Part shown: positions 4,435-33,192 of the stretch, piece by piece
Layout: every line of letters begins with the position of its first letter
How positions within the stretch are numbered: the first letter of the stretch is position 1
Origin: Pseudomonas sp. KU26590
Lineage (GTDB): Bacteria; Pseudomonadota; Gammaproteobacteria; Pseudomonadales; Pseudomonadaceae
Direction: 5' to 3'
NCBI RefSeq assembly: GCF_026153515.1
Contig: NZ_CP110644.1
Location: 3,873,501-3,937,500, forward strand
Length of the DNA stretch: 64,000 nt
The notes under the pieces: generated by a model
Seen by the model: only the letters and a program-made list of their open reading frames with translations
Database searches by the model: none
What the model was told of the DNA's origin: nothing
Program-made: the position numbers and the translations under genes

Positions 4435-7400
4435 TCACTTGAAATCCCGACTGCGCACGTCGAGCCCGGTGAGCATCGGCGTGAGGTCGAACAATCGCTG
4501 GGCGATGACGTGGCGCACGCCCTTCTGGAATTCGAACTTGCCGAACACCTGCATCAACTGCGACCCCACCAACACCTTGCGTTGGCGCTCGGCCAGATCA
4601 CGCCAGACCACGACGTTGATCATGCCGTGTTCGTCTTCCAGGGTCACAAAGGTCACGCCGCTGGCGGTGCCGGGGCGTTGTCGACCGACGACAAGCCCGG
4701 CGACGCTGAAGCTTCGGCCGTGCTCTTCATCCAGCAAATCCTTTGAACTGCGAAAACGCTTCGCAGCGAGTTTAGGGCGCAGGAGGGCCAGCGGGTGCGG
4801 GCCGAGCGTGGTGCCGAGGGTGTCGTAGTCCGCCGCAAGATCTTGGGCGACACTCGGCAGTGGCAGCGCGACCTGGGCCTCTTCGCCAAAACAGTCGTCG
4901 CCGAATAGCGGCCGTTGCATCTCGACACCGGCGATCTCCCAGCGCGCCCGATGCCGATGCCCCACCAGCCCCCGCAGCGCACCGGAATCCGCCAGCGCAG
5001 CACGGGCCCTATTGTCCAGTTCGGCACGAATGCACAGGTCGGCCACGTCTTTGAAATCACGTACGCCACGCGCCTGTTCGATGCGCTTGGCGTCCTCCTC
5101 GCGAAAGCCGCGAATGATGCGCAGGCCCATGCGGATCGCGAGGTTCTGGTTGTATTCCCGGCCGGCCACCGGTTCCAGCGAACAGTCCCAGTCGCTGTGT
5201 CGCACGTCCACCGGGTGCACGTCGATCTGGTGGCGCCGGGCGTCCTGCAGCAACTGGTCCGGGCTGTAAAAGCCCATGGGCCAGCTGTTGATCAGCGCGC
5301 AGGTAAAGGCCGCCGGCTCGTGGCATTTGAGCCAGCAACTGGCGTAGGTCAGCAAGGCGAAGCTGGCGGCGTGGGATTCCGGGAAACCATAACTGCCGAA
5401 GCCCTTGATCTGCTCGAAAATGCGCTGGATGAACTCGTCCGGGTAGCCCTTTTCTTTCATGCGCTCGCTGAGGCGGATGCGATGGGGCTCGAGACCGCCA
5501 TGGCGTTTCCAGGCCGCCATGGAACGGCGCAACTGGTCCGCCTCGCCGGGGGAATAATCGGCGGCGACAATCGCCAGTTGCATGACCTGCTCCTGAAACA
5601 GCGGCACGCCCAGGGTGCGCTCAAATACCACTTTCAGTTCGTCGGAGGGGTACGTCACTGCCTCTTCGCCGTTCTTGCGGCGCAGGTACGGATGCACCAT
5701 GCCGCCCTGAATCGGCCCGGGCCGGACGATGGCCACCTCGATCACCAGGTCGTAGAACGTGCTGGGCTTCAACCGCGGCAGCATGGACATCTGCGCCCGT
5801 GACTCGATCTGGAACACGCCGATGGTGTCGGCCCGGGTGATCATGTCGTAGGTCGGTTTGTCCTCGGCGGGGATGGTCGCGAGGGTCAGGTCGTAACCGC
5901 GATAACCCCTGACCAGATCGAAGGTCCGGCGCAGCGCGCTGAGCATGCCCAACGCCAGAATATCGACCTTGAGCAGGCCCACCAGATCGAGGTCGTCCTT
6001 GTCCCATTGAATGATGGTGCGGTCGGCCATAGCGGCGTTTTCCACGGGCACCAGGGTTTCCAGCGGGTGCTCGGAAATCACAAAGCCGCCGGGGTGCTGG
6101 GACAGATGCCGGGGGAAGCCGATGAGTTCGCCGGTGAGTGTCAGCACCCGGCGCAGAGTCAGGCTGTCAGGTTCAAAACCACATTCGCGCAGGCGTTCGG
6201 CGGGCGGCATGCTGTCGCTCCAGCGGCTGAAGCAGTCGGCCAGGGCGTTTATCTGGTCGGGCGGCAAACCGAGGACGCGGGCCACATCCCGGACGGCCCC
6301 CGCACCGTGGTACGTACTGGCAACGGCGGTGAGCGCTGCCCTGCCCCGGCCATATCGACGGAACACGTATTGCAGCACTTCCTCGCGCCGTTCGTGCTCG
6401 AAATCGACATCGATGTCCGGGGGCTCGTCGCGTTCTTCGGAGATGAAACGCTCGAACAGCAGGTTGCTTTTTGATGGGTCCAGCTCGGTGATGCCCAGGG
6501 CGAAACACACCGTGGAGTTGGCCGCCGAGCCACGGCCCTGGCAGAGGATGTGCTGCTCGCGGGCGAAGCTGACGATGTCATGCACCGTGAGGAAGTAACT
6601 CTCGTACCGCTTGGCCGCGATGACCTTCAGCTCTTTTTCGATGTTGCTGCGGGCGACCTCCGGCACGCCCTGAGGCCAGCGACGGCCCGCGCCCTGTTCG
6701 GTCAGATGCCGCAGCCAGCTGCTGGGGGACTGGTCAGGTGGCACCAGTTCATGGGGGTATTCGTAGCGCAACTCACTGAGGTCGAAGGTGCAGCGCCGGG
6801 CGATCTTCACGGTTTCAATCAGCAGGCTCGCCGGGTAAACCTCGCTCAGTACCGACAACGGCCGCAGATGCCGCTCGCCGTTGGCAAACAGCCGATGCCC
6901 TGCTTCCGCCACGGTGGTGTGATGGCGGACAGCGCTCATGGTGTCCTGCAACGCCCGACGACCGCGGGCGTGCATGTGCACGTCGCCACTGGCGACGGCA
7001 GGAATCGCCATGGCCCGCGCCATGCCGAGCAAGGTGTTGAGGCGCTTTCGGTCATCGGGACCGCAATGCAGCTCGACGCTCAGCCACAGGTTCTGCTGAA
7101 AGATCCCGCGCAGCCAGATGCCTTGTTCCCGCCGTGTCGGGACGTCCTGATCAAGATCGGGCAGCCACAGCGCCAAAAGCCCCGAGAGCGGCGGCTGAAA
7201 GTCCTCATGCAGCAAGCGGTATTCACCCTTCTTGCTGCGGCGCCGACCTTGGGTGATCAAGCGACACAAGGCCTGGTAACCGGCGAGATTCTCCACCAGC
7301 AAGACGATTTTCGGCCCGTTCTCGACGGTGATTTCGCTGCCGATGATCAGTGGCAGCTCACATTCCTTCGCGGCCTGCCACGCACGCACGATGCCCGCCA

Positions 7401-14157: not shown

Positions 14158-14215
14158 GAACGATCATCAAGAAAATCACCGCTTACACATTGTGGGACCG
14201 GCTTCAGCCGGGAAG

Positions 14216-14514
14216 CTCTTGATCTGCTCTTGATCCGCTCTTGATCTTGATCTTCCTACGCAAAAAGCCCAGACGACACCCATCGCGACTTGGGTGCAGG
14301 CTGAACGCAGGTCTCGCGCAGTGGGCCGAGCGGCATGGATGCCGCGAGAGCCGCCCCCCGCCATGGATGGCGGATGGCGGCGGGCCCACGGAGCGAGACC
14401 GGAGTGAAGGAACCCGACGAAGTCGGGCCCAACCGAGAGCAAGCACCCTTGGTTACTTGGGGTGCTTTTCCAAGTAACTCGCCGAAGGCGAAATATCTGC
14501 CGTTAGGCAGATGC
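14216..14514 (+). repeat. REP-linked multi-hairpin repeat, copy 1
   Basis: The element starts after a REP motif (14192-14215) with TTGATC-type repeats. It continues with a branched region (stem GGTCTCGC at 14310 with GCGAGACC at 14393, enclosing GCGGCAtggaTGCCGC and CCGCCATggATGGCGG) and then four hairpins: CCCGACgaaGTCGGG, GTTACTTGG/CCAAGTAAC, GCCgaaGGC and ATCTGCCgttaGGCAGAT. Three more copies lie at 26104, 26584 and 31367. Base changes between copies keep the helices paired, so structure is conserved. Confidence 0.9.
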
Positions 14515-14556
14515 TCTTAAAGCGTTATTGACGCCAACCCCGAATCTGGTGTCTCC

Positions 14557-22576: not shown

Positions 22577-25121
22577 GCGACTGGGCGTTCTGCCCTGTTC
22601 GACTGCCCTCATCCACGGGTGCGCCAAGTGAAGCGGCCCCTCGGCGATCATCGAAAAATGCCTTGTCTCCTGCAACCCGCGCCGAGGCGCGCGGGTTATT
22701 CCCATCGTCATTGCCCGCAGCGTCGATGAACCAGTAACAGTGGCGAACGGCGCGGGTGATGGCCACATAGGCCAGGCGCAACACCTCATCTTTCTGCGCA
22801 TTGTCGAACGCTTCCAGATCCCCTTCCCGCCCCAGACCCGCCAGCTGATAGACCTGATTCTTGTAGGGCGATTGCGTCAGATGCTGACAGTCACCGAGCA
22901 GAAACACCGCGTCGGCCTGTAGGCCCTTCGCGCTGTGATAGGTCAGTTGCTTCAGGCGACGATCCTGGGGCGGGAGCCTGTAATCGGCATCGGCGAGATC
23001 CTGCAGCGCTTGCGGCAAGCGGCTGCGTTCGCTGCCTTTGCGGTACAGCAGCAGCACGGAGTCGCCGGCCTGGTAATGCTCGGTCAGGCTGGCCAGCAAT
23101 CGGTCGTCATCGCGGTCCAGCACGGTCACCGGCATCAGCTCCTGCTCCGGGCCGCTGGCGCGGGCTTTCTTGCCGCTGATCGCCGGCGCGGCGCGAACGA
23201 TGTGTTCGGCGGCGTCGATGATGTGCTGGTGGCTGCGGAAGTTGTCGCTGAGCATGACCTTGGTGGTCGATGGCGAGGAAAACTCCTTGGCAAACTCCAT
23301 GAAGAACTTCGGCGAACTGCCCCGCCAGCCGTAGATCGACTGCCAGTCATCGCCCACGCACAGCAGCGATGAACGCTGCGCTCCACGACCGACATGCAGC
23401 GCCGGGCCGCGACTGCGGATCTCGCGCAGACTGGCGCGGATCCACGAGACGATTTGCGGCGAGACGTCCTGAAACTCATCGATCATCAAATGCGACAGCG
23501 GTCGCAGCCCTGCATCGCTGACCAGCTTCAGGTTCTCCGGGGAGTTTTCGCCGAACAGCGAGAACATCCGGTTGTAGGTCATCACCGGCGGCGATTGCTC
23601 CAGCAGGTGATTCTCGAAGGCCTTCCAGAACAGGCTCAGCGCTTCGAAGAAAAACCGGTCAGGGTCCTGATCGGAAAAGCTCATCTGCGCTACGGCGTCC
23701 GGCACGTCCAGCCCGAGGTTTTCGATGAAGCTGGCCGCAGCCACGAAACAGTCCAGCAGGGGCGCCGCGCTCAGCTCGCCTTTGACTTTGTAATCGAACC
23801 CCGGGCCCGCCACTGCCGCGCCGGACAATGACTGCATCATGCCCCGCGAGGCCTGGTAGTTTTCCAGCCAGATGACCGGCTTGCGGCAGAACGCCTGGAA
23901 CAGCGTGCGCTTGATCACCCACTCGGCCCACACCGGCAGCTTGGCGTCCGGGCGGCGCAGGTGCTGGTCCTCGCTCGGGTCGAAGCCAAGGACGATCCAG
24001 GCATCCAGCTCGGCCGCATAACCGTGGACATGGAAGGTCAGGCCGCTGACCTCGACGGTCTGGCGCATCGGCTCGACGCCCTGAATCGGCCACGCGCCGG
24101 CCCGAATCCACAGGTCTTCGATAACGTCACACAGCTCCTCGTCGCGCTTGGACGACAGGCCCATCACAGTGATGCGCTTCTGCACGTCCGGGTGATCGCG
24201 GTCCAGCTCTTTCAGTTGCAGGGACTGCCGGTACAAGGGCGCCATGACTTCGCGAAAGCGCGGATTGGCGGCGTACAGATCGCGGTAGCAGAGGTTCATC
24301 TGCTGGCGTTGCGCGTCATTGATGCGCAGGTCGAAAGGGTTGCTGTCGGCACTGTCGTCGAACAGCTGGCCGGACTGGCTGCTGAGGTTCTCGAACGCCT
24401 GCAATTGCTCGAAACCCGGGAGGCTGCGCACCAGCGGCAGGATCCGCGAGTGGAAGGTGCGCACCACCTCGCGGGCCTGACGCGGGGTCAGCTCATGGCC
24501 CCACAGCGCCATGATCTCGATGAGCTTGTTGATGAAGTCCTTGCGCGACTCGCGGGTGAAGGTCACCACGGTCATCGAGTCCAGCTCAAAGCCCAGGTAG
24601 TGGTTGAGCAGCAGCACCCGCAACACCAGCGAGGTCGACTTGCCCGCGCCAGCGCCAGCGATCACGTAGGTCGACGGGGTGTCGCTGAAAATCATCTTCC
24701 ACTGGGCGGCGGTGGGTTGCGCGTGGGCGGGCAGTTTCTCGGCGACGTCTGCCTTGATCCGCTTCTTCAGCTCGTTAGTCAGTGGCAGGCGCCAGTCGTC
24801 GAACAGGTGATCGTCAACCCTCGGACTGCGGTGCTCAAGGGGCCGGGTGTCGCGGATGACCAGCACCTGACGGCCTGCTTCGATGCCATCCAGATGACCC
24901 TCGGCGTAACCCTCGTTCATGCCCTCGGCATGGCCGTTGAGGTATCCATCGGCGTGGCCCTGGTGCCAGGACGGCACGTGCTGCGCCTGCATGCGCGACA
25001 AGCCGCCACCCATCATGCGGGCCATGAGCCGTTTGAAGAACGGCAGGCGTTCGGGGGTGTTCAGGTCGGGCGGCAGTGGGTTTGGTTCGGTGGGTAGCTC
25101 GGCGGAAAAATCGTGTGGCAC
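22563..25121 (-). CDS. UvrD/Rep-like ATP-dependent DNA helicase
   Basis: The 852-residue protein is a superfamily 1 helicase: Walker A GAGAGKST (156-163), motif Ia VVTFTRESR, motif II DEFQDVSP (548-555), motif III VGDDWQSIYGWRG, motif V LTYHSAKGLQADAVFLLGD and motif VI RLAYVAITRA. The first 110 residues are unusual, with a repeated Gly-His/Tyr-x-x-Gly pattern (HADGYLNGHAEGMNEGYAEG, about 56-75). This pattern resembles that of flagellar and secretion stator proteins and has no known role in helicases. The start is a GTG with GGAG 6 bases upstream. It probably acts in DNA repair; the partner is unknown. Confidence 0.88.
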   Translation of the reverse strand: MPHDFSAELPTEPNPLPPDLNTPERLPFFKRLMARMMGGGLSRMQAQHVPSWHQGHADGYLNGHAEGMNEGYAEGHLDGIEAGRQVLVIRDTRPLEHRSPRVDDHLFDDWRLPLTNELKKRIKADVAEKLPAHAQPTAAQWKMIFSDTPSTYVIAGAGAGKSTSLVLRVLLLNHYLGFELDSMTVVTFTRESRKDFINKLIEIMALWGHELTPRQAREVVRTFHSRILPLVRSLPGFEQLQAFENLSSQSGQLFDDSADSNPFDLRINDAQRQQMNLCYRDLYAANPRFREVMAPLYRQSLQLKELDRDHPDVQKRITVMGLSSKRDEELCDVIEDLWIRAGAWPIQGVEPMRQTVEVSGLTFHVHGYAAELDAWIVLGFDPSEDQHLRRPDAKLPVWAEWVIKRTLFQAFCRKPVIWLENYQASRGMMQSLSGAAVAGPGFDYKVKGELSAAPLLDCFVAAASFIENLGLDVPDAVAQMSFSDQDPDRFFFEALSLFWKAFENHLLEQSPPVMTYNRMFSLFGENSPENLKLVSDAGLRPLSHLMIDEFQDVSPQIVSWIRASLREIRSRGPALHVGRGAQRSSLLCVGDDWQSIYGWRGSSPKFFMEFAKEFSSPSTTKVMLSDNFRSHQHIIDAAEHIVRAAPAISGKKARASGPEQELMPVTVLDRDDDRLLASLTEHYQAGDSVLLLYRKGSERSRLPQALQDLADADYRLPPQDRRLKQLTYHSAKGLQADAVFLLGDCQHLTQSPYKNQVYQLAGLGREGDLEAFDNAQKDEVLRLAYVAITRAVRHCYWFIDAAGNDDGNNPRASARVAGDKAFFDDRRGAASLGAPVDEGSRTGQNAQSLRPD

Positions 25122-25399
25122 GCGGGCTCCGGGTATCAGCGTTTTCGACAGGGCGCCTATGGTCGCCCCATTCTTGTTTCAGCTCCAGTGAAATGCTTTG
25201 CCGTCAGGGAGTTAGCCGATCAAGGGCAGCGTGTTTATCGCCTGCTTACCCGTCTATACATCGAATTAACCGATTGCATTCATGCAGAACTTACGCTTTT
25301 TATCGATATTTGGTTGATGGATCATTAGTCCATCGACTGAACAAGTCATCACCAGCGGCGCCCTGCCACAGGCCTGGCCCTGCTTCGGAGGAACTGATC

Positions 25400-26095
25400 A
25401 TGCTGCAACTTCGACCTTTTAAATCCCTAGGCGGCGCAGACCACGGTTGGCTGAACGCCCATCACCATTTCTCGTTTGCCAGTTACTACGACGAGAGCCG
25501 CATGAACTGGGGCCAGCTGCGTGTGTGGAACGATGACGTAATCGAAGCCGGCACGGGCTTTCCGCGTCATCCGCACCGGGACATGGAGATCATTACTTAT
25601 GTGCGTGAGGGCGCCATTACTCACGAGGACAGCCTGGGTAACCGTGGCCGTACCGAAGCGGGCGATGTGCAGGTGATGAGTGCCGGCACGGGTGTGGCCC
25701 ACAGTGAATACAATCTGGAGTCGAAGGAGACGCGGATTTTCCAGATCTGGATCATGCCGGACGAGGTCGGTGCTCCGCCGTCCTGGGGTGCCAAGCCGTT
25801 CCCGAAAGGCGACCGCGAAGGCTTTGTGACGCTGGCGAGCGGCAAGGCGGACGATGATATCGAGCTGCGGATTCGGGCGAATGCCCGGTTGGTGGCGGCG
25901 AATCTGAAGGCCGGTGAGACGGCTGAATACGTACTGGATGCGGGCCGCCGGGCTTATATGGTGCCTGCGACAGGCGTTGTCGAGGTCAACGGCGTTCGTG
26001 CTGAAGCGCGCGATGGTGTGGCGGTTGAAGATGAGCGTGTGTTGCGGGTGACGGCCCTCGAAGACAGCGAGATCGTCCTCGTGGATGTGGCTTGA
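25400..26095 (+). CDS. Pirin family protein (YhhW type)
   Basis: The 231-residue protein is a bicupin pirin. The metal-binding motif FPRHPHRDMEIITYV gives two His and a Glu, and GTGVAHSEYN supplies the third His. YhhW-type pirins can show quercetin 2,3-dioxygenase activity and are otherwise stress or redox proteins of unclear role. GGAGGA at 25387 is 7 bases before the ATG at 25400; the open frame extends upstream to 25076 but that part lies over the helicase start and is not coding. Multi-hairpin repeats follow. Confidence 0.92.
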   Translation: MLQLRPFKSLGGADHGWLNAHHHFSFASYYDESRMNWGQLRVWNDDVIEAGTGFPRHPHRDMEIITYVREGAITHEDSLGNRGRTEAGDVQVMSAGTGVAHSEYNLESKETRIFQIWIMPDEVGAPPSWGAKPFPKGDREGFVTLASGKADDDIELRIRANARLVAANLKAGETAEYVLDAGRRAYMVPATGVVEVNGVRAEARDGVAVEDERVLRVTALEDSEIVLVDVA

Positions 26096-26103
26096 AAAGC
26101 GGT

Positions 26104-26412
26104 AGATCAAGATCAAGGGCGTCTGCCTAAGGGCAGACTGTTTCGCCTTCGGCGAGTTACTTGGAAAAGCACCCCAAGTAACCAAGGGTGCTTGCTCTCG
26201 GTTGGGCCCGACTTCGTCGGGTTCCTTCACTCCGGTCCCGCTCCGTGGGCCCGCCGCCATCCGCCATCCATGGCGGGGGGCGGCTCTCGCGGCATCCATG
26301 CCGCTCGGCCCACTCCGCGAAACCTCCGTTCAGCCTGCACCAAAGTCGCGATTGGCGGTGACTGGGATTTTTGTGTACGAAGATCACAAGCAGAGCCAAA
26401 GCAGATCAAAGA
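26104..26412 (-). repeat. REP-linked multi-hairpin repeat, copy 2 (inverted)
   Basis: On the minus strand this is a full copy of the element at 14216. The outer stem reads GGTTTCGC with GCGGGACC, which pairs with two G-T wobble positions where copy 1 has Watson-Crick pairs. The inner hairpins GCGGCAtggaTGCCGC and CCGCCATggATGGCGG are intact, and the last hairpin is GTCTGCCcttaGGCAGAC. Its REP companion (CCCGGCTAAAGCCAGTCCCAC) lies at 26415, in the same relative position as in copy 1. Copy 2 and copy 3 face each other across about 170 bp. Confidence 0.9.
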
Positions 26413-26583: not shown

Positions 26584-26888
26584 CCTTTGATCTGCACTTG
26601 ATCTTGATCTTGATCTTGATCTTGATCTTCTGCCGCGATGGCTCAAACACCACAAATCGCGACTTGGGTGCAGGCCGAACGCAGACGACGCGCAGTGGGC
26701 CGAGCGGCATGGATGCCGCGAGAGCGCCGCCAGGACATGGATATCCGTTCGGCGCGGGCCCACGGAGCGTCGTCGGAATGAGGGAACCCGACGAAGTCGG
26801 GCCTAACCAGGAGCAAGCACCTTTGGTTACTTGGGGTGCTTTTCCAGGTAACTCGCCGAAGGCGAAACGTCTGCCGTTAGGCAGACTC
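26584..26888 (+). repeat. REP-linked multi-hairpin repeat, copy 3
   Basis: A full copy of the element, starting with an extended hexamer tract of five CTTGAT units at about 26598-26627. The outer stem is GACGACGC with GCGTCGTC, different in sequence from copy 1 but still fully paired. The second inner hairpin is GGACATggATATCC with one mismatch. The final hairpin is GTCTGCCgttaGGCAGAC. It ends about 40 bp before the phosphoglucomutase stop codon. Confidence 0.9.
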
Positions 26889-26927
26889 TCTCAGCCACGC
26901 CGCGATCTCAGGGACGACACAAAAGCT

Positions 26928-28571
26928 TCAAGGCGCTATAGCGCCGTCCACGAGCACTTGCGCCTCAGCCACCAGACGCTTGAGGTGATCCTCGCCCTTG
27001 AAGCTCTCGGCATAGATCTTGTAGATATCCTCAGTCCCCGACGGCCGCGCGGCAAACCAGCCGTTCTCGGTAATGACCTTCAGGCCACCAATCGCCTGAT
27101 CGTTGCCCGGCGCCTTGCTCAGGATACTTTCGATCTTCTCCCCCGCCAGCTCAGTGGACGTCACCTGCTCCGGCGACAGCTTGCTCAACAGCGCCTTCTG
27201 CTCGAAGTTGGCCTTCGCCTCGACCCGGGTCGACACCGGCTCGCCCAACTCATCGGTCAACGACTTGTACATCTCGCTCGGGTCACGGCCCTTGCGCGCG
27301 CGGATTTCCGCTGCCAGCAATGCCGGGATCAAACCATCCTTGTCCGTCGTCCAGACCGTCCCGTCACGACGCAGGAACGACGCACCGGCGCTTTCCTCAC
27401 CGCCAAAGCCCAGCGAACCCTCGAACAAGCCTTCGGCGAAGAACTTGAAGCCCACCGGCACTTCATACAGGCGGCGGCCCAGACGCTGGGACACACGATC
27501 AATCATGCCGCTGCTGACCACCGTCTTGCCGACAGCGGCATCCGCACGCCATTCAGGACGGTTCTGGAACAGGTAATCGATGGACACCGCCAGATAGTTG
27601 TTCGGCGCCAACAGGCCGCCGGTCGGCGTGACGATGCCGTGGCGATCGTGGTCCGGGTCGCAGGCGAAGGCCACCTGGAAGCGATCCTTCAAACCGATCA
27701 GGCTCTGCATCGCGAAGTTGGACGACGGGTCCATGCGGATCTTGCCGTCCCAGTCCACGCTCATGAAGCGGAAAGTCGGGTCGACGAACTTGTTCACCAC
27801 TTCCAGATTCAGGCCGTAGTGCTCACCGATCGCCGACCAGTAATTCACGCCCGCCCCACCCAGCGGATCAACGCCCAAGTGCAGGTTGGCGCCACGAATG
27901 GCGTCCATGTCGATGACGTTTTTCAGGTCCGCCACGTAGGTGTTGATGTAGTCGTGGCGATGGGTGGTGTCGGCGCGCAGGGCTTTCTCGTAGGTGATGC
28001 GCTGGACGTTGACGATGCGCTCGGCGAGCAATTGGTTGGCTTTGTTCTCGATCCACTTGGTGATGTGCGAATCAGCCGGGCCGCCGTTGGGCGGGTTGTA
28101 CTTGAAGCCGCCACTCTCCGGCGGGTTGTGCGAAGGCGTGATGACGATGCCGTCGGCCAGGCCCGTGGTGCGCCCGCGGTTGTAGCAGATGATGGCGTGG
28201 GAGATCGCCGGCGTCGGGGTGTACTCGTCACCCTCGGAAATCATCACGTTGACGCCGTTGGCCGCCAGCACTTCCAGCGCCGAAGCGGCCGCCGGGGTTG
28301 ACAGGGCGTGGGTGTCAGCGCCGAGGAACAGCGGCCCGTCGATACCGTTGGCCTGGCGGTACAGGCAGATCGCCTGACTGATGGCCAGCACGTGCCACTC
28401 GTTGAAACTCAATTCAAAGGAGCTGCCGCGGTGCCCGGAGGTACCGAAGGCAACACGCTGGGTCGCCACCGACGCGTCGGGCTGACCGGTGTAATAGGCC
28501 GTCACCAGACGAGGAAGATCGACCAGCAATTCTGCAGGCGCCAGTTTGCCCGCGAATGGACTGATACTCAT
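26928..28571 (-). CDS. pgm: Phosphoglucomutase (alpha-D-glucose-specific)
   Basis: The 547-residue protein is an alpha-D-phosphohexomutase: FGTSGHRG near residue 45, the phosphoserine motif TPSHNPP with Ser147, the Mg loop DPDHDRHG near 305, the sugar-binding GGEESAG and the C-terminal phosphate site [13 protein letters not shown]. It interconverts glucose 1-phosphate and glucose 6-phosphate. The start at 28571 has GGAGG 6 bases upstream; the frame is open further upstream but reads unlike protein. The length fits the Pgm type rather than the shorter AlgC type. Confidence 0.95.
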
Positions 28572-28745
28572 GCGAAACCTCCGTGGATGAAAAATAGGGA
28601 AATGACAAAAAGAAAAGGTCCCGACGGGGCGGGAAACAACCTTAACCGCCGCCTGAAACGCCATTAGCGCGGCAGTTTACTGGCAGTTGGACCATGGCGC
28701 GCGGCTATTGATCCGTAACGTCCTGAGACATTTAGCTGACCCACA

Positions 28746-31076: not shown

Positions 31077-31691
31077 TGAAAAGGCTGGCCGTCGATCGGA
31101 ACACTGGACGGACGTACAGATAACAGCTCAACGCGGTCGAGGCAAACGGAAATGGATTGGCGGCCGGATTTCGGCGCGGAGCGCCAAGGGATGCATCCCC
31201 ACGCAGAGCATGGGTACGATGAACGCGTGCAGTCTGGAGCTGGTTTTCACCATCAAAATTTATGGCGCACCTACTGGCCTCTTCCCGGCTAAAGCCGGTC
31301 CCACGAAAAGCAGCGCGTGCAGTCAGTAGGATTGACTCTGACTGTAGGACCGGCTTTAGCCGGGAAGCTGTTGATCCGCTGTTGATCTGCTTTTGATCTC
31401 CATACACAAAAAGCCCAGACACCACCAAACGCGACTTGGGTGCAGGCCGAACGTAGACGACGCGCAGTGGGCCGAGCCGCATGGATGCGGCGAGAGCGCC
31501 GTCAGGACATGGATGTCCGTTCGGCGCGGGCCCACGGAGCGTCGTCGAAGTGAGGGAACCCGACGAAGTCGGGCCAAACCAGGAGCAAGCACCCTTGGTT
31601 ACTTGGGGTGCTTTTCCAAGTAACTCGCCGAAGGCGAAACCCGAGGCCGTTAGGCCGACGCCCTTGATCTTGATCTACATAAGCCACGCAA
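31077..31691. other. Intergenic region, only repeats seen
   Basis: The 615 bp between the helicase start and the MocR-like stop carry a half copy of the nested palindrome (about 31168-31212), two REP motifs (TTCCCGGCTAAAGCCGGTCC at 31284; a facing one at 31343-31366) and copy 4 of the multi-hairpin element. No gene is supported. Confidence 0.75.
31367..31677 (+). repeat. REP-linked multi-hairpin repeat, copy 4
   Basis: A full copy of the element found at 14216. Here the first inner hairpin is GCCGCAtggaTGCGGC where the other copies have GCGGCAtggaTGCCGC, a double compensatory change. The second inner hairpin GGACATggATGTCC is perfectly paired, and the outer stem is GACGACGC with GCGTCGTC. 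The element is flanked on both sides by TTGATC-type hexamers, at its start and again at 31664. Confidence 0.9.
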
Positions 31692-33089
31692 CTAAAGAAG
31701 CCGCTCTTGCACCAACGCATTGCGAATAATCACCAGCATCGACTCAATATTCTGATCCCAATCCACCGTCCCGCTGATCCGCAAACACTGCTGATGCAAC
31801 CCCCGCACACTGAACAACTCCCCCGGCGCCACCACGATCCGCTGCTCCAGCAACCGATCGAACACCCGCGCCGTATCCACCCGATGCACACTCTCCAGCC
31901 AGATCGACGCCCCACCCCGAGGACGCACAAACGCCACCTCATCCCCCAGATACTGCTCCACCCCGCTGACCAACTCACCGACCCGTTGCTCAAGCCCGCC
32001 CCGTAAATCCCGCAGGTGCCGGTCCAGCTGCCCCGACGCGTACAACCGCGCAATCGCCTTCTGCCGGACCGGCGGCAAACGGAACGAACGCAACACCCAC
32101 TGCTGATGCAACAGCGTTCGTGAATGCCGGCTCAACAGATACCCGAACGGCGCCTCCAGCCCGATCATCTTGTCGAACGCACCCACCACCAACAGCCGCT
32201 GCGGATCAATCAACTCCCGGAATGGCGAACGGTCATCCTCGAAATACAGGGCGCCATGGGTATCGTTCTCCAGCACCCACAACCCATGCAGGTTCAACAC
32301 CTGCGCCATCCGCGCGCGCTGGGCGCACGGCATCCTCTGCCCGCGAACCGGGTCCATCTGCGACGACACAATCGCCATCTTCACGTCTTCCCGCTGGATC
32401 ACCGCACCCAGCTCATCGACGTCGACCCCCCCTTGAGCGTCGGTACAGACTTCAATCACCTGAATCCCGTATGCCTGCAGCGTACGCAGGATGCTCCAGC
32501 CGCACGGCGACTCCACCAGCACGGCGCCGTCGCGCAGTTGCAGGGCTTCGATCACGGTCTTCAGCACACCGGTTTTGTCCGGCCCGATGAACACGTTGTC
32601 CGGGTGCCAGCAATGCTCGGTCGACGAGGTGTAGTGAGCCGCCAGCGCCGTGCGCAACTCGACATCGCCGAAGGGTTGAAAACGCGGGTCGGGCTGGCAG
32701 GGATAATGACGCATGAGGTCGCGCTCAACGCTCAGCAGCGCGCCGTGAAGTGACACCAGCAGCGTCGGCTCATCGGCGCCGAAGACGAACATGTCCGGGC
32801 GCCGGGCGCTGGCATGAAAGCGCGTGAACACGTCACCGCCTTCCAGCGGCAGATCGTTGCAGGGGTTGGGCAGCGCGAAATAGCCGGATTTGGGTACGGA
32901 GCAGATGCGCCCTTCCTTTTCGAGAAGGCTGTAGGCGTTCTGCACCGTGGAAATCGACACCCGCAGCCGTCGTGCCAGCAACCGCAACGAAGGCAGGCGC
33001 ACAGCCGGCCCGGCGGACAGCTCGTTGGTCAGCCTGAGCAGGTAGCGGTACACCATCTGGTAGGCAAAATCGGTCTTGTTGTTATTCAT
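31692..33089 (-). CDS. MocR-like GntR/aminotransferase-fold regulator
   Basis: The 465-residue protein joins a GntR winged HTH (residues about 5-75, LPSLRLLARRLRVSISTVQN) to an aminotransferase class I domain. The expected PLP lysine is Lys307 in VVGAFDKMIGLEAPFGYL; the residue before it is Asp where the family usually has Ser. MocR proteins regulate transcription using PLP as cofactor, often for vitamin B6, amino-acid or amine genes. The start at 33089 is the first ATG near GGGGGTG. It is 103 bp downstream of the PP-loop gene on the same strand and may be co-transcribed with it, or control it. Confidence 0.85.
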   Translation of the reverse strand: MNNNKTDFAYQMVYRYLLRLTNELSAGPAVRLPSLRLLARRLRVSISTVQNAYSLLEKEGRICSVPKSGYFALPNPCNDLPLEGGDVFTRFHASARRPDMFVFGADEPTLLVSLHGALLSVERDLMRHYPCQPDPRFQPFGDVELRTALAAHYTSSTEHCWHPDNVFIGPDKTGVLKTVIEALQLRDGAVLVESPCGWSILRTLQAYGIQVIEVCTDAQGGVDVDELGAVIQREDVKMAIVSSQMDPVRGQRMPCAQRARMAQVLNLHGLWVLENDTHGALYFEDDRSPFRELIDPQRLLVVGAFDKMIGLEAPFGYLLSRHSRTLLHQQWVLRSFRLPPVRQKAIARLYASGQLDRHLRDLRGGLEQRVGELVSGVEQYLGDEVAFVRPRGGASIWLESVHRVDTARVFDRLLEQRIVVAPGELFSVRGLHQQCLRISGTVDWDQNIESMLVIIRNALVQERLL

Positions 33090-33192
33090 CGAACACCCCC
33101 ATCCGTGCGCCAGGCGCAGGGTCATTGAGAAAGCGCCGCGTCCACCGCCCGAGGCTCAGCGCAGCACGTCGCATCAGTTCATCGGGCAGCCT

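Follow-up and report, generated by a model that had tools for sequence, protein, structure and literature searches.

The genome of Pseudomonas sp. KU26590 carries about eighty copies of an intergenic repeat of about 300 bp, and the core of this repeat is the orphan RNA family TwoAYGGAY of Rfam (RF01731). The structured repeat is real and strongly conserved: the sense strand of its core, about 110 nt, keeps its structure while its sequence changes, and folds into two nested helices carrying two hairpins, the loops of which keep the pattern C-A(N)GGA(N)-G. The reading that we favour, as slightly more likely than not, is a family of TwoAYGGAY copies dispersed over the chromosome that would bind Rsm proteins when transcribed and would be kept alike by conversion bound to replication polarity. 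As an RNA family the core was already known; an account of it as a dispersed repeat was not found in the open-licence literature.

Four copies of the repeat in the window

The window, the whole stretch of 64,000 nucleotides that was analysed (contig NZ_CP110644.1, positions 3,873,501 to 3,937,500), had been described in the initial annotation as holding four copies, and nhmmer finds all four at these places (Table 1). Direct reading confirmed the outer stems (GGTCTCGC/GCGAGACC, GGTTTCGC/GCGGGACC and GACGACGC/GCGTCGTC) and both ATGGAT hairpins. The remaining hairpin descriptions were mostly accurate, with two corrections: the second hairpin of copy 3 is GGAC-ATGGAT-ATCC with a broken closing pair (C·A), and the last hairpin, given as ATCTGCC or GTCTGCC type, is in copy 4 of another type (GAGGCC/GGCCGAC region). 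In copy 1 the core spans 14298-14407, and the GGA-to-GGA distance between its two loops is 28 nt. Small ORFs cross the element. Runs of TTGATC-type hexamers are present 5' of the core, for example at 14216-14256, at 26584-26628 and in locus L153; at least one TTGATC lies within 140 nt upstream in 78 of the 80 KU26590 copies, and similar TTGCTT/TTGATC arrays are present in other species.

Table 1. Copies of the repeat in the window and their parts (window numbering; gathering, the Rfam cut-off of 43 bits)
Feature	Position	Strand	Basis and remarks
REP-like palindrome immediately 5' of copy 1	14194..14215	+	sequence
Copy 1, subtype I, hairpin 2 of CCGCC type	14217..14520	+	nhmmer, 354.5 bits; sequence reading
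Copy 1, outer helix P1, GGTCTCGC 14310-14317 with GCGAGACC 14393-14400	14310..14400	+	pair counts in 71 KU26590 cores; encloses the remaining core
Copy 1, match to RF01731 TwoAYGGAY	14323..14387	+	43.1 bits (gathering 43)
Copy 1, loop 1, ATGGAT, putative RsmA/RsmE-type site	14335..14340	+	sequence and conservation
Copy 1, loop 2, ATGGAT, putative RsmA/RsmE-type site	14363..14368	+	sequence and conservation
Copy 2, subtype I	26104..26410	-	nhmmer; 3' end 9 bp from stop of convergent gene 25076-26095
Copy 2, match to RF01731	26247..26311	-	43.1 bits; loops 26294-26299 and 26266-26271
Copy 3, subtype II, head to head with copy 2	26585..26901	+	nhmmer; 3' end 27 bp from stop of convergent gene 26928-28664
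Copy 3, match to RF01731	26697..26761	+	30.7 bits, below gathering; loops 26709-26714 and 26737-26742 (closing pair broken in the second)
Copy 4, subtype II	31369..31676	+	nhmmer; 3' end 16 bp from stop of convergent gene 31692-33125
Copy 4, match to RF01731	31469..31533	+	35.3 bits, below gathering; loops 31481-31486 and 31509-31514

The core is the Rfam family TwoAYGGAY

The cut-off of RF01731 is exceeded by copies 1 and 2, and copies 3 and 4 fall below it (Table 1). Six of seven loci from other genomes score above the cut-off, with up to 54.7 bits, the exception being L145. Matches to mir-3158 and MIR8032 were far below gathering and were rejected. The Rfam clan CL00106 groups TwoAYGGAY with RsmY and rsmX. 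TwoAYGGAY is listed without a function (PMC2864571), and it has been proposed, on motif grounds, to sequester CsrA (PMC4333381).

The repeat shares with the family the two hairpins with AYGGAY-type loops, the AG linker and the enclosing stems; it differs in that the motif is here only one part of a repeat of about 300 bp and about 80 copies, often in opposite-strand pairs and with extra hairpins on the 3' side. The initial annotation had considered that the element might already be described as a structured one: this is so for the core, as RF01731, whereas no description of TwoAYGGAY as a dispersed repeat, or of an Rsm-binding repeat, was found in the open-licence literature. Two intergenic repeats of P. 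fluorescens, R200 (320 bp; present 47 times in SBW25 and 8 times in Pf-5) and R26 (352 bp; 20 copies in Pf0-1), would fit in size, intergenic place and copy number in a comparison by description only (PMC2718517).

The sense strand of the core is the folded strand

Copy 1 (253 nt) folds with -130.1 kcal/mol, compared to -97.7 kcal/mol (sd 5.5) for shuffled sequences (z -5.9), and copy 4 behaves similarly (z -5.6). The antisense strand of copy 1 also folds well (z -7.5), as a palindrome must, and folding energy alone can thus not pick the strand. The strand is indicated by the wobble pairs: in the 71 distinct cores of KU26590, G·U occurs in 46 cells on the sense strand and A·C in nine, and in 103 distinct cores from other genomes (four antisense or partial matches dropped) the counts are 162 and five, from an alignment that was fitted to the structure and leans toward G·U. 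These cells are not independent events; the ratio is 31:2 in subtype I and a weak 12:7 in subtype II (see below for the subtypes). This excess of G·U over A·C marks the sense strand as the one that folds.

Among the 71 KU26590 cores, 98.6% of 2129 cells pair, versus 85.9% in shuffles, and the covariation score is 0.319, versus 0.101 in shuffles and at most 0.058 when the structure is slid. The number of pairs changed on both sides (12 of 30) lies within the range of the shuffles (mean 10.6; reached by 34 of 500). Part of the covariation within the genome is caused by whole hairpin modules that were exchanged between copies.

Covariation across species was evaluated with a home-made tree-based null modelled on that of R-scape. 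The alignment, built from sequence only, had 120 rows and included 20 of the 71 KU26590 cores plus the reference; eight rows had been dropped (four antisense or partial, three insertion-bearing, and L095, which belongs to another family). Six column pairs covary at E<0.05, all of them among the 30 structural pairs and none elsewhere; the other 24 structural pairs do not reach E<0.05 in this test. With the score of the KU26590 cores above shuffles and six covarying structural pairs across species, the proposal that both sides of the helices change together is borne out. The proposal of a structured RNA is likewise upheld, by the identity of the core with TwoAYGGAY, the excess of G·U over A·C, the cross-species covarying pairs and the conserved GGA loops.

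The GA...GA that flanks hairpin 1 is invariant in the 71 KU26590 cores and variable over the genus (columns 31, 32 and 50); tandem G·A pairs in a stem have been given for TwoAYGGAY (PMC4333381). Several further hairpins follow 3' of the core.

The loops have the form of Rsm recognition sites

All 160 loops of the KU26590 copies keep A-N-G-G-A-T, with changes of N in six. Over the genus, loop 1 is C-A-N-G-G-A-Y-G and varies almost only at N and Y: the numbers of changes are C 0, A 0, N 10, G 0, G 1, A 0, Y 4 and G 0, compared to 6.7 per column in the stems. Loop 2 appears slightly less conserved in the genus alignment because short loops are misaligned. Counting three insertion-bearing loops, GGA is kept in 102 of the 103 distinct cores from other genomes, in each loop. 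In the 206 loops of these cores, N is U in 131, G in 36, A in 11 and absent in 23, and the remaining five comprise two loops without GGA and three with insertions. The A-G linker joining the hairpins is conserved in 120 and 119 of the 120 rows. Among 50 matches read from the genomes G114 and G120, one G120 copy (L362) has lost the GGA of loop 1, and three of 12 distant gammaproteobacterial copies (L390, L393 and L394) have ACGAC as loop 2. The partner A of N does not change when N does, and thus the U-A pair of a DNA hairpin is not kept inside the loop.

A(N)GGA, best placed in a hairpin loop, is the published site of CsrA/RsmA (PMC4066749, PMC7366521), and RsmE of SBW25, offered hairpins as single-stranded DNA probes, effectively bound only those with ATGGA and AGGGA (PMC9928087). 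By sequence, the loops of the repeat match this recognition form of RsmA/RsmE/CsrA, with N mostly U or G, the forms that RsmE reportedly binds well.

KU26590 has four genes of the CsrA family, and both RsmY and rsmX; adjoining rsmX is a group II intron-like Rfam match (L174 1671-1744, minus strand; 40.9 bits, cut-off 40). CsrA is present in all 18 carriers tested besides KU26590 (17 from the class sample and G024) and in 15 of 17 non-carriers: its presence does not discriminate carriers and hardly supports the Rsm reading. In P. putida KT2440, intergenic regions beside copies of ISPpu8 were co-purified with RsmA, RsmE and RsmI, and all three proteins co-purified a long palindromic intergenic RNA that was taken for an ISPpu8 target; the published peaks of the three proteins include a place downstream of PP_3547. 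In the view of the authors, rsmY and rsmZ are the principal, and possibly the sole, Rsm antagonists of KT2440 (PMC7937890). The co-purified regions are a lead, as candidate copies of the present repeat.

Copy number and spread

In the 6.18-Mb KU26590 genome, nhmmer searches over the fetched loci gave 85 matches, of which 80 score at least 190 bits and are near-full copies. A custom 110-nt model (R1) identified 82 copies, a search with RF01731 yielded 78 matches at E up to 10 (nine above its cut-off), and blastn with copy 1 gave at least 46 matches (40 of 98 candidates scored). A genus survey had a match in 143 of 199 genomes, KU26590 included, with per-genome counts of up to at least 19, and the R1 model matched in 11 of 18 relatives of the same genus, with one to 43 matches each: copy number is very uneven between species. 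One sequence form is found, among the matches listed, in P. kilonensis, P. brassicacearum, P. mandelii, P. frederiksbergensis, P. corrugata and P. jessenii.

Outside the genus, TwoAYGGAY is present in multiple copies also in other gammaproteobacterial families. A sample of 274 genomes of Gammaproteobacteria had an RF01731 match in 18, KU26590 included, 14 of them above the cut-off; five genomes besides KU26590 have at least nine matches each, and two (G366 and G477) have copies with close neighbours on the opposite strand. A similar 3' hairpin was recognised by eye in seven of 12 distant copies, indicating that the composite element may predate the genus.

Two subtypes follow replication polarity

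The copies of KU26590 fall into two subtypes that differ in the outer stem. Of the 47 copies of subtype I (GGTCTC-like), 34 are head-on to replication, and of the 31 copies of subtype II (GACGAC-like), 25 have the opposite polarity (Fisher p 6.6e-6); two copies fit neither. Polarity was assigned with the origin assumed at base 1 and the terminus at half length, as the origin could not be placed from the GC skew of the fetched loci. Of the 23 head-to-head pairs, 16 consist of one copy of each subtype, five of the same subtype, and two include an unassigned copy. The same arrangement is seen in two other genomes: all 40 matches of G114 lie in 20 opposite-strand pairs, the higher-scoring member having the same polarity in 17, and 52 of 53 matches of G120 lie in 26 such pairs, with the same polarity of the higher-scoring member in all 26. 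The two subtypes thus represent concerted evolution of the copies, and their polarity follows the replication arm; this is a process at the level of DNA. Our hypothesis is that conversion, running through single-stranded DNA at the fork, mostly connects copies that share a polarity.

Little recent movement at the sites compared

A REP-like palindrome, which is a separate neighbour, stands 5' of the core in 66 of the 80 KU26590 copies. REP and REPIN sequences resemble the repeat in being palindromic, extragenic and present in many copies; the repeat differs from them in its sequence, its GGA loops and its sites, which are common to different species. It is about ten times as long as a REP.

These observations raise the alternative of a mobile DNA, in which the hairpins would serve as single-stranded substrate for a REP/RAYT- or IS200/IS605-like enzyme or for a process at the fork, and the RNA fold would be a by-product. 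Besides the REP-like neighbour, the opposite polarities of the subtypes in KU26590, G114 and G120 and the uneven copy number fit this explanation. However, all five KU26590 sites with long synteny in the related genome G030 are occupied there, one with an extra copy that KU26590 lacks (two further sites had no long syntenic match), indicating little recent movement. Also, the two subtypes lie on opposite replication strands and share one sense fold and the GGA loops; the excess of G·U over A·C is seen in each of them, weakly in subtype II; the A-U/U-A pairs expected inside the loop of a DNA hairpin are not kept; and the element is nearly absent from plasmids and phages, where searches with three element types identified only one P. 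antarctica plasmid, one short match to a P. aeruginosa plasmid and one phage record. We consider mobile DNA an unlikely explanation. Of the corresponding earlier proposals, mobilisation together with REP would fit the REP-like neighbour but gains little from the five sites, all occupied in G030 too, and a folded single-stranded DNA substrate would be compatible with the polarity of the subtypes but leaves the invariant GGA beside a free N unexplained.

The phage record (MT121968.1, 11.9 kb) has a copy of 78% identity at 5289-5481 that could be host sequence. At the site of copies 2 and 3, the flanks are only 67 to 260 bp apart in seven of 14 other genomes, compared to 836 bp here, which is too short for the pair. 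In G120, an IS3-family element is inserted between two 3' hairpins, at the same point in the three loci read (L145 from about 1732, L376 and L384), and ten pairs spaced by 1.9-2.2 kb suggest that such an element has used the repeat as target many times; insertion sequences do thus use the repeat as a target. The possibility that this element is ISPpu8 was rejected, as it is IS3-type, whereas ISPpu8 is listed as IS4; none of 120 listed protein matches bears the name ISPpu8, and plasmids gave no match.

Position relative to genes

According to crude gene calls, which missed at least the gene at 25076-26095, 55 of the 80 KU26590 copies have a convergent gene on their 3' side, with the stop codon within 40 bp in 39 of these; the 3' neighbour of copy 1 shares the orientation of the copy. 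On the 5' side, the neighbour is co-directional for 52 copies and divergent for 28. Simple scans recognised neither a sigma-70-like promoter of the copies' own nor a terminator at their 3' ends, and a stand-alone sRNA gene is therefore not claimed. A candidate terminator (AGCACCC...GGGTGCTTTT) was dropped: it is absent from the scan list and its hairpin differs between species. Sense RNA would thus come from read-through or from promoters that the scans did not recognise, and with 28 divergent 5' neighbours many copies would not be read through in sense.

The frequent convergent gene, the nearby stop codons and the further hairpins 3' of the core would suit an element that acts, independently of Rsm, on mRNA ends or stability or on read-through between convergent genes, and the intergenic repeats of P. 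fluorescens are reported to show a general tail-to-tail bias (PMC2718517). Such a 3'-end function appears quite unlikely, as no terminator was recognised by the scans at the 3' ends and the conserved unpaired bases of the loops would have no explanation.

Conversion and constraint

Module types combine freely among copies. Across six of seven copies with orthologues in G030 (in the seventh the motif was not found), the core differs at 61 of 659 sites, compared to 119 of 612 on the 5' side and 206 of 880 on the 3' side, and 43 of the 61 core differences fall into two copies with swapped modules: these two G030 cores have 25 and 18 differences to their KU26590 orthologues and only two and three to other KU26590 copies. 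In one orthologous pair, an A-U pair of hairpin 2 corresponds to G-C, with both sides changed by mutation or conversion. Among 50 of 93 matches read, G114 has 12 identical cores and G120 has ten. A Rfam c4-a1b1 match (49.6 bits) lies between two element copies at L119 2185-2237 on the minus strand. The initial annotation had offered inverted-repeat conversion as the source of the paired changes, which is only partly right: hairpin modules are swapped between copies, and the copies evolve by conversion plus constraint. That the repeat has no function, with pairing kept only by conversion among copies and inverted arms, would agree with the free combination of modules, the two G030 cores and the identical cores, and is highly improbable, since it leaves unexplained why the stems change and the unpaired GGA and AG linker stay almost constant, why G·U exceeds A·C and how the element has spread over many families.

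Possible function as an Rsm-binding repeat

Judged by its loops and their conservation, Rsm binding would be the best-supported function of the repeat. A copy would be transcribed mostly by read-through from a neighbouring gene, and its two loops may be held by one Rsm dimer; tens of copies together would form a spread-out sink for RsmA/RsmE beside RsmY and RsmX. Alternatively, each copy may act as a local anchor for RsmA/RsmE in a 3'-UTR. Copies would stay alike, as two subtypes, by conversion mainly within one replication polarity.

The sponge RNAs RsmX, RsmY, RsmZ, CsrB and CsrC are alike in presenting GGA hairpin loops to RsmA, RsmE or CsrA, and RsmY and rsmX are in the same Rfam clan as TwoAYGGAY. 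Each of them is, however, encoded by one gene that has a GacA-controlled promoter of its own, and they offer more GGA sites, whereas the present element occupies about 80 loci with two loop sites each and has no promoter recognised by the scans. RsmU of Xanthomonas is an RsmA-binding RNA that originates from a 3'-UTR, much as copies that are read through would in the present proposal; its effect persisted after its GGA motifs had been altered (PMC7694677); RsmW of P. aeruginosa is a further RsmA-binding RNA (PMC4950607). Unlike the present element, both are single loci and no repeat family. Against the proposed Rsm function stand the two loop sites per copy, compared to several in RsmY/RsmZ, the few losses of GGA, the scores of copies 3 and 4 below the Rfam cut-off, the negative scans for promoters and terminators, the 28 divergent 5' neighbours, the presence of CsrA in most non-carriers and the view of the KT2440 authors on rsmY and rsmZ.

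A wider version, possible though doubtful, is that TwoAYGGAY as a whole is a distributed Csr/Rsm sponge of Gammaproteobacteria: scattered transcripts would jointly buffer RsmA/RsmE, conversion would act separately per replication polarity, and the capacity would be genome-wide and tunable between lineages instead of being set by a single gene.

Since 2010, RF01731 has stayed without an established function, with only a motif-based guess. The abundance of the repeat, at conserved sites, in culturable Pseudomonas rich in Gac/Rsm components, with loops of the two forms reportedly bound well by RsmE, makes the CsrA guess directly testable, and the pairing of subtypes with its replication polarity is a separate, measurable clue to how repeats spread or convert. 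If Rsm binding holds true, a class of intergenic repeats would gain a role, and Rsm regulation would gain a further layer of about 80 decoy loci, the number of which differs widely between species.
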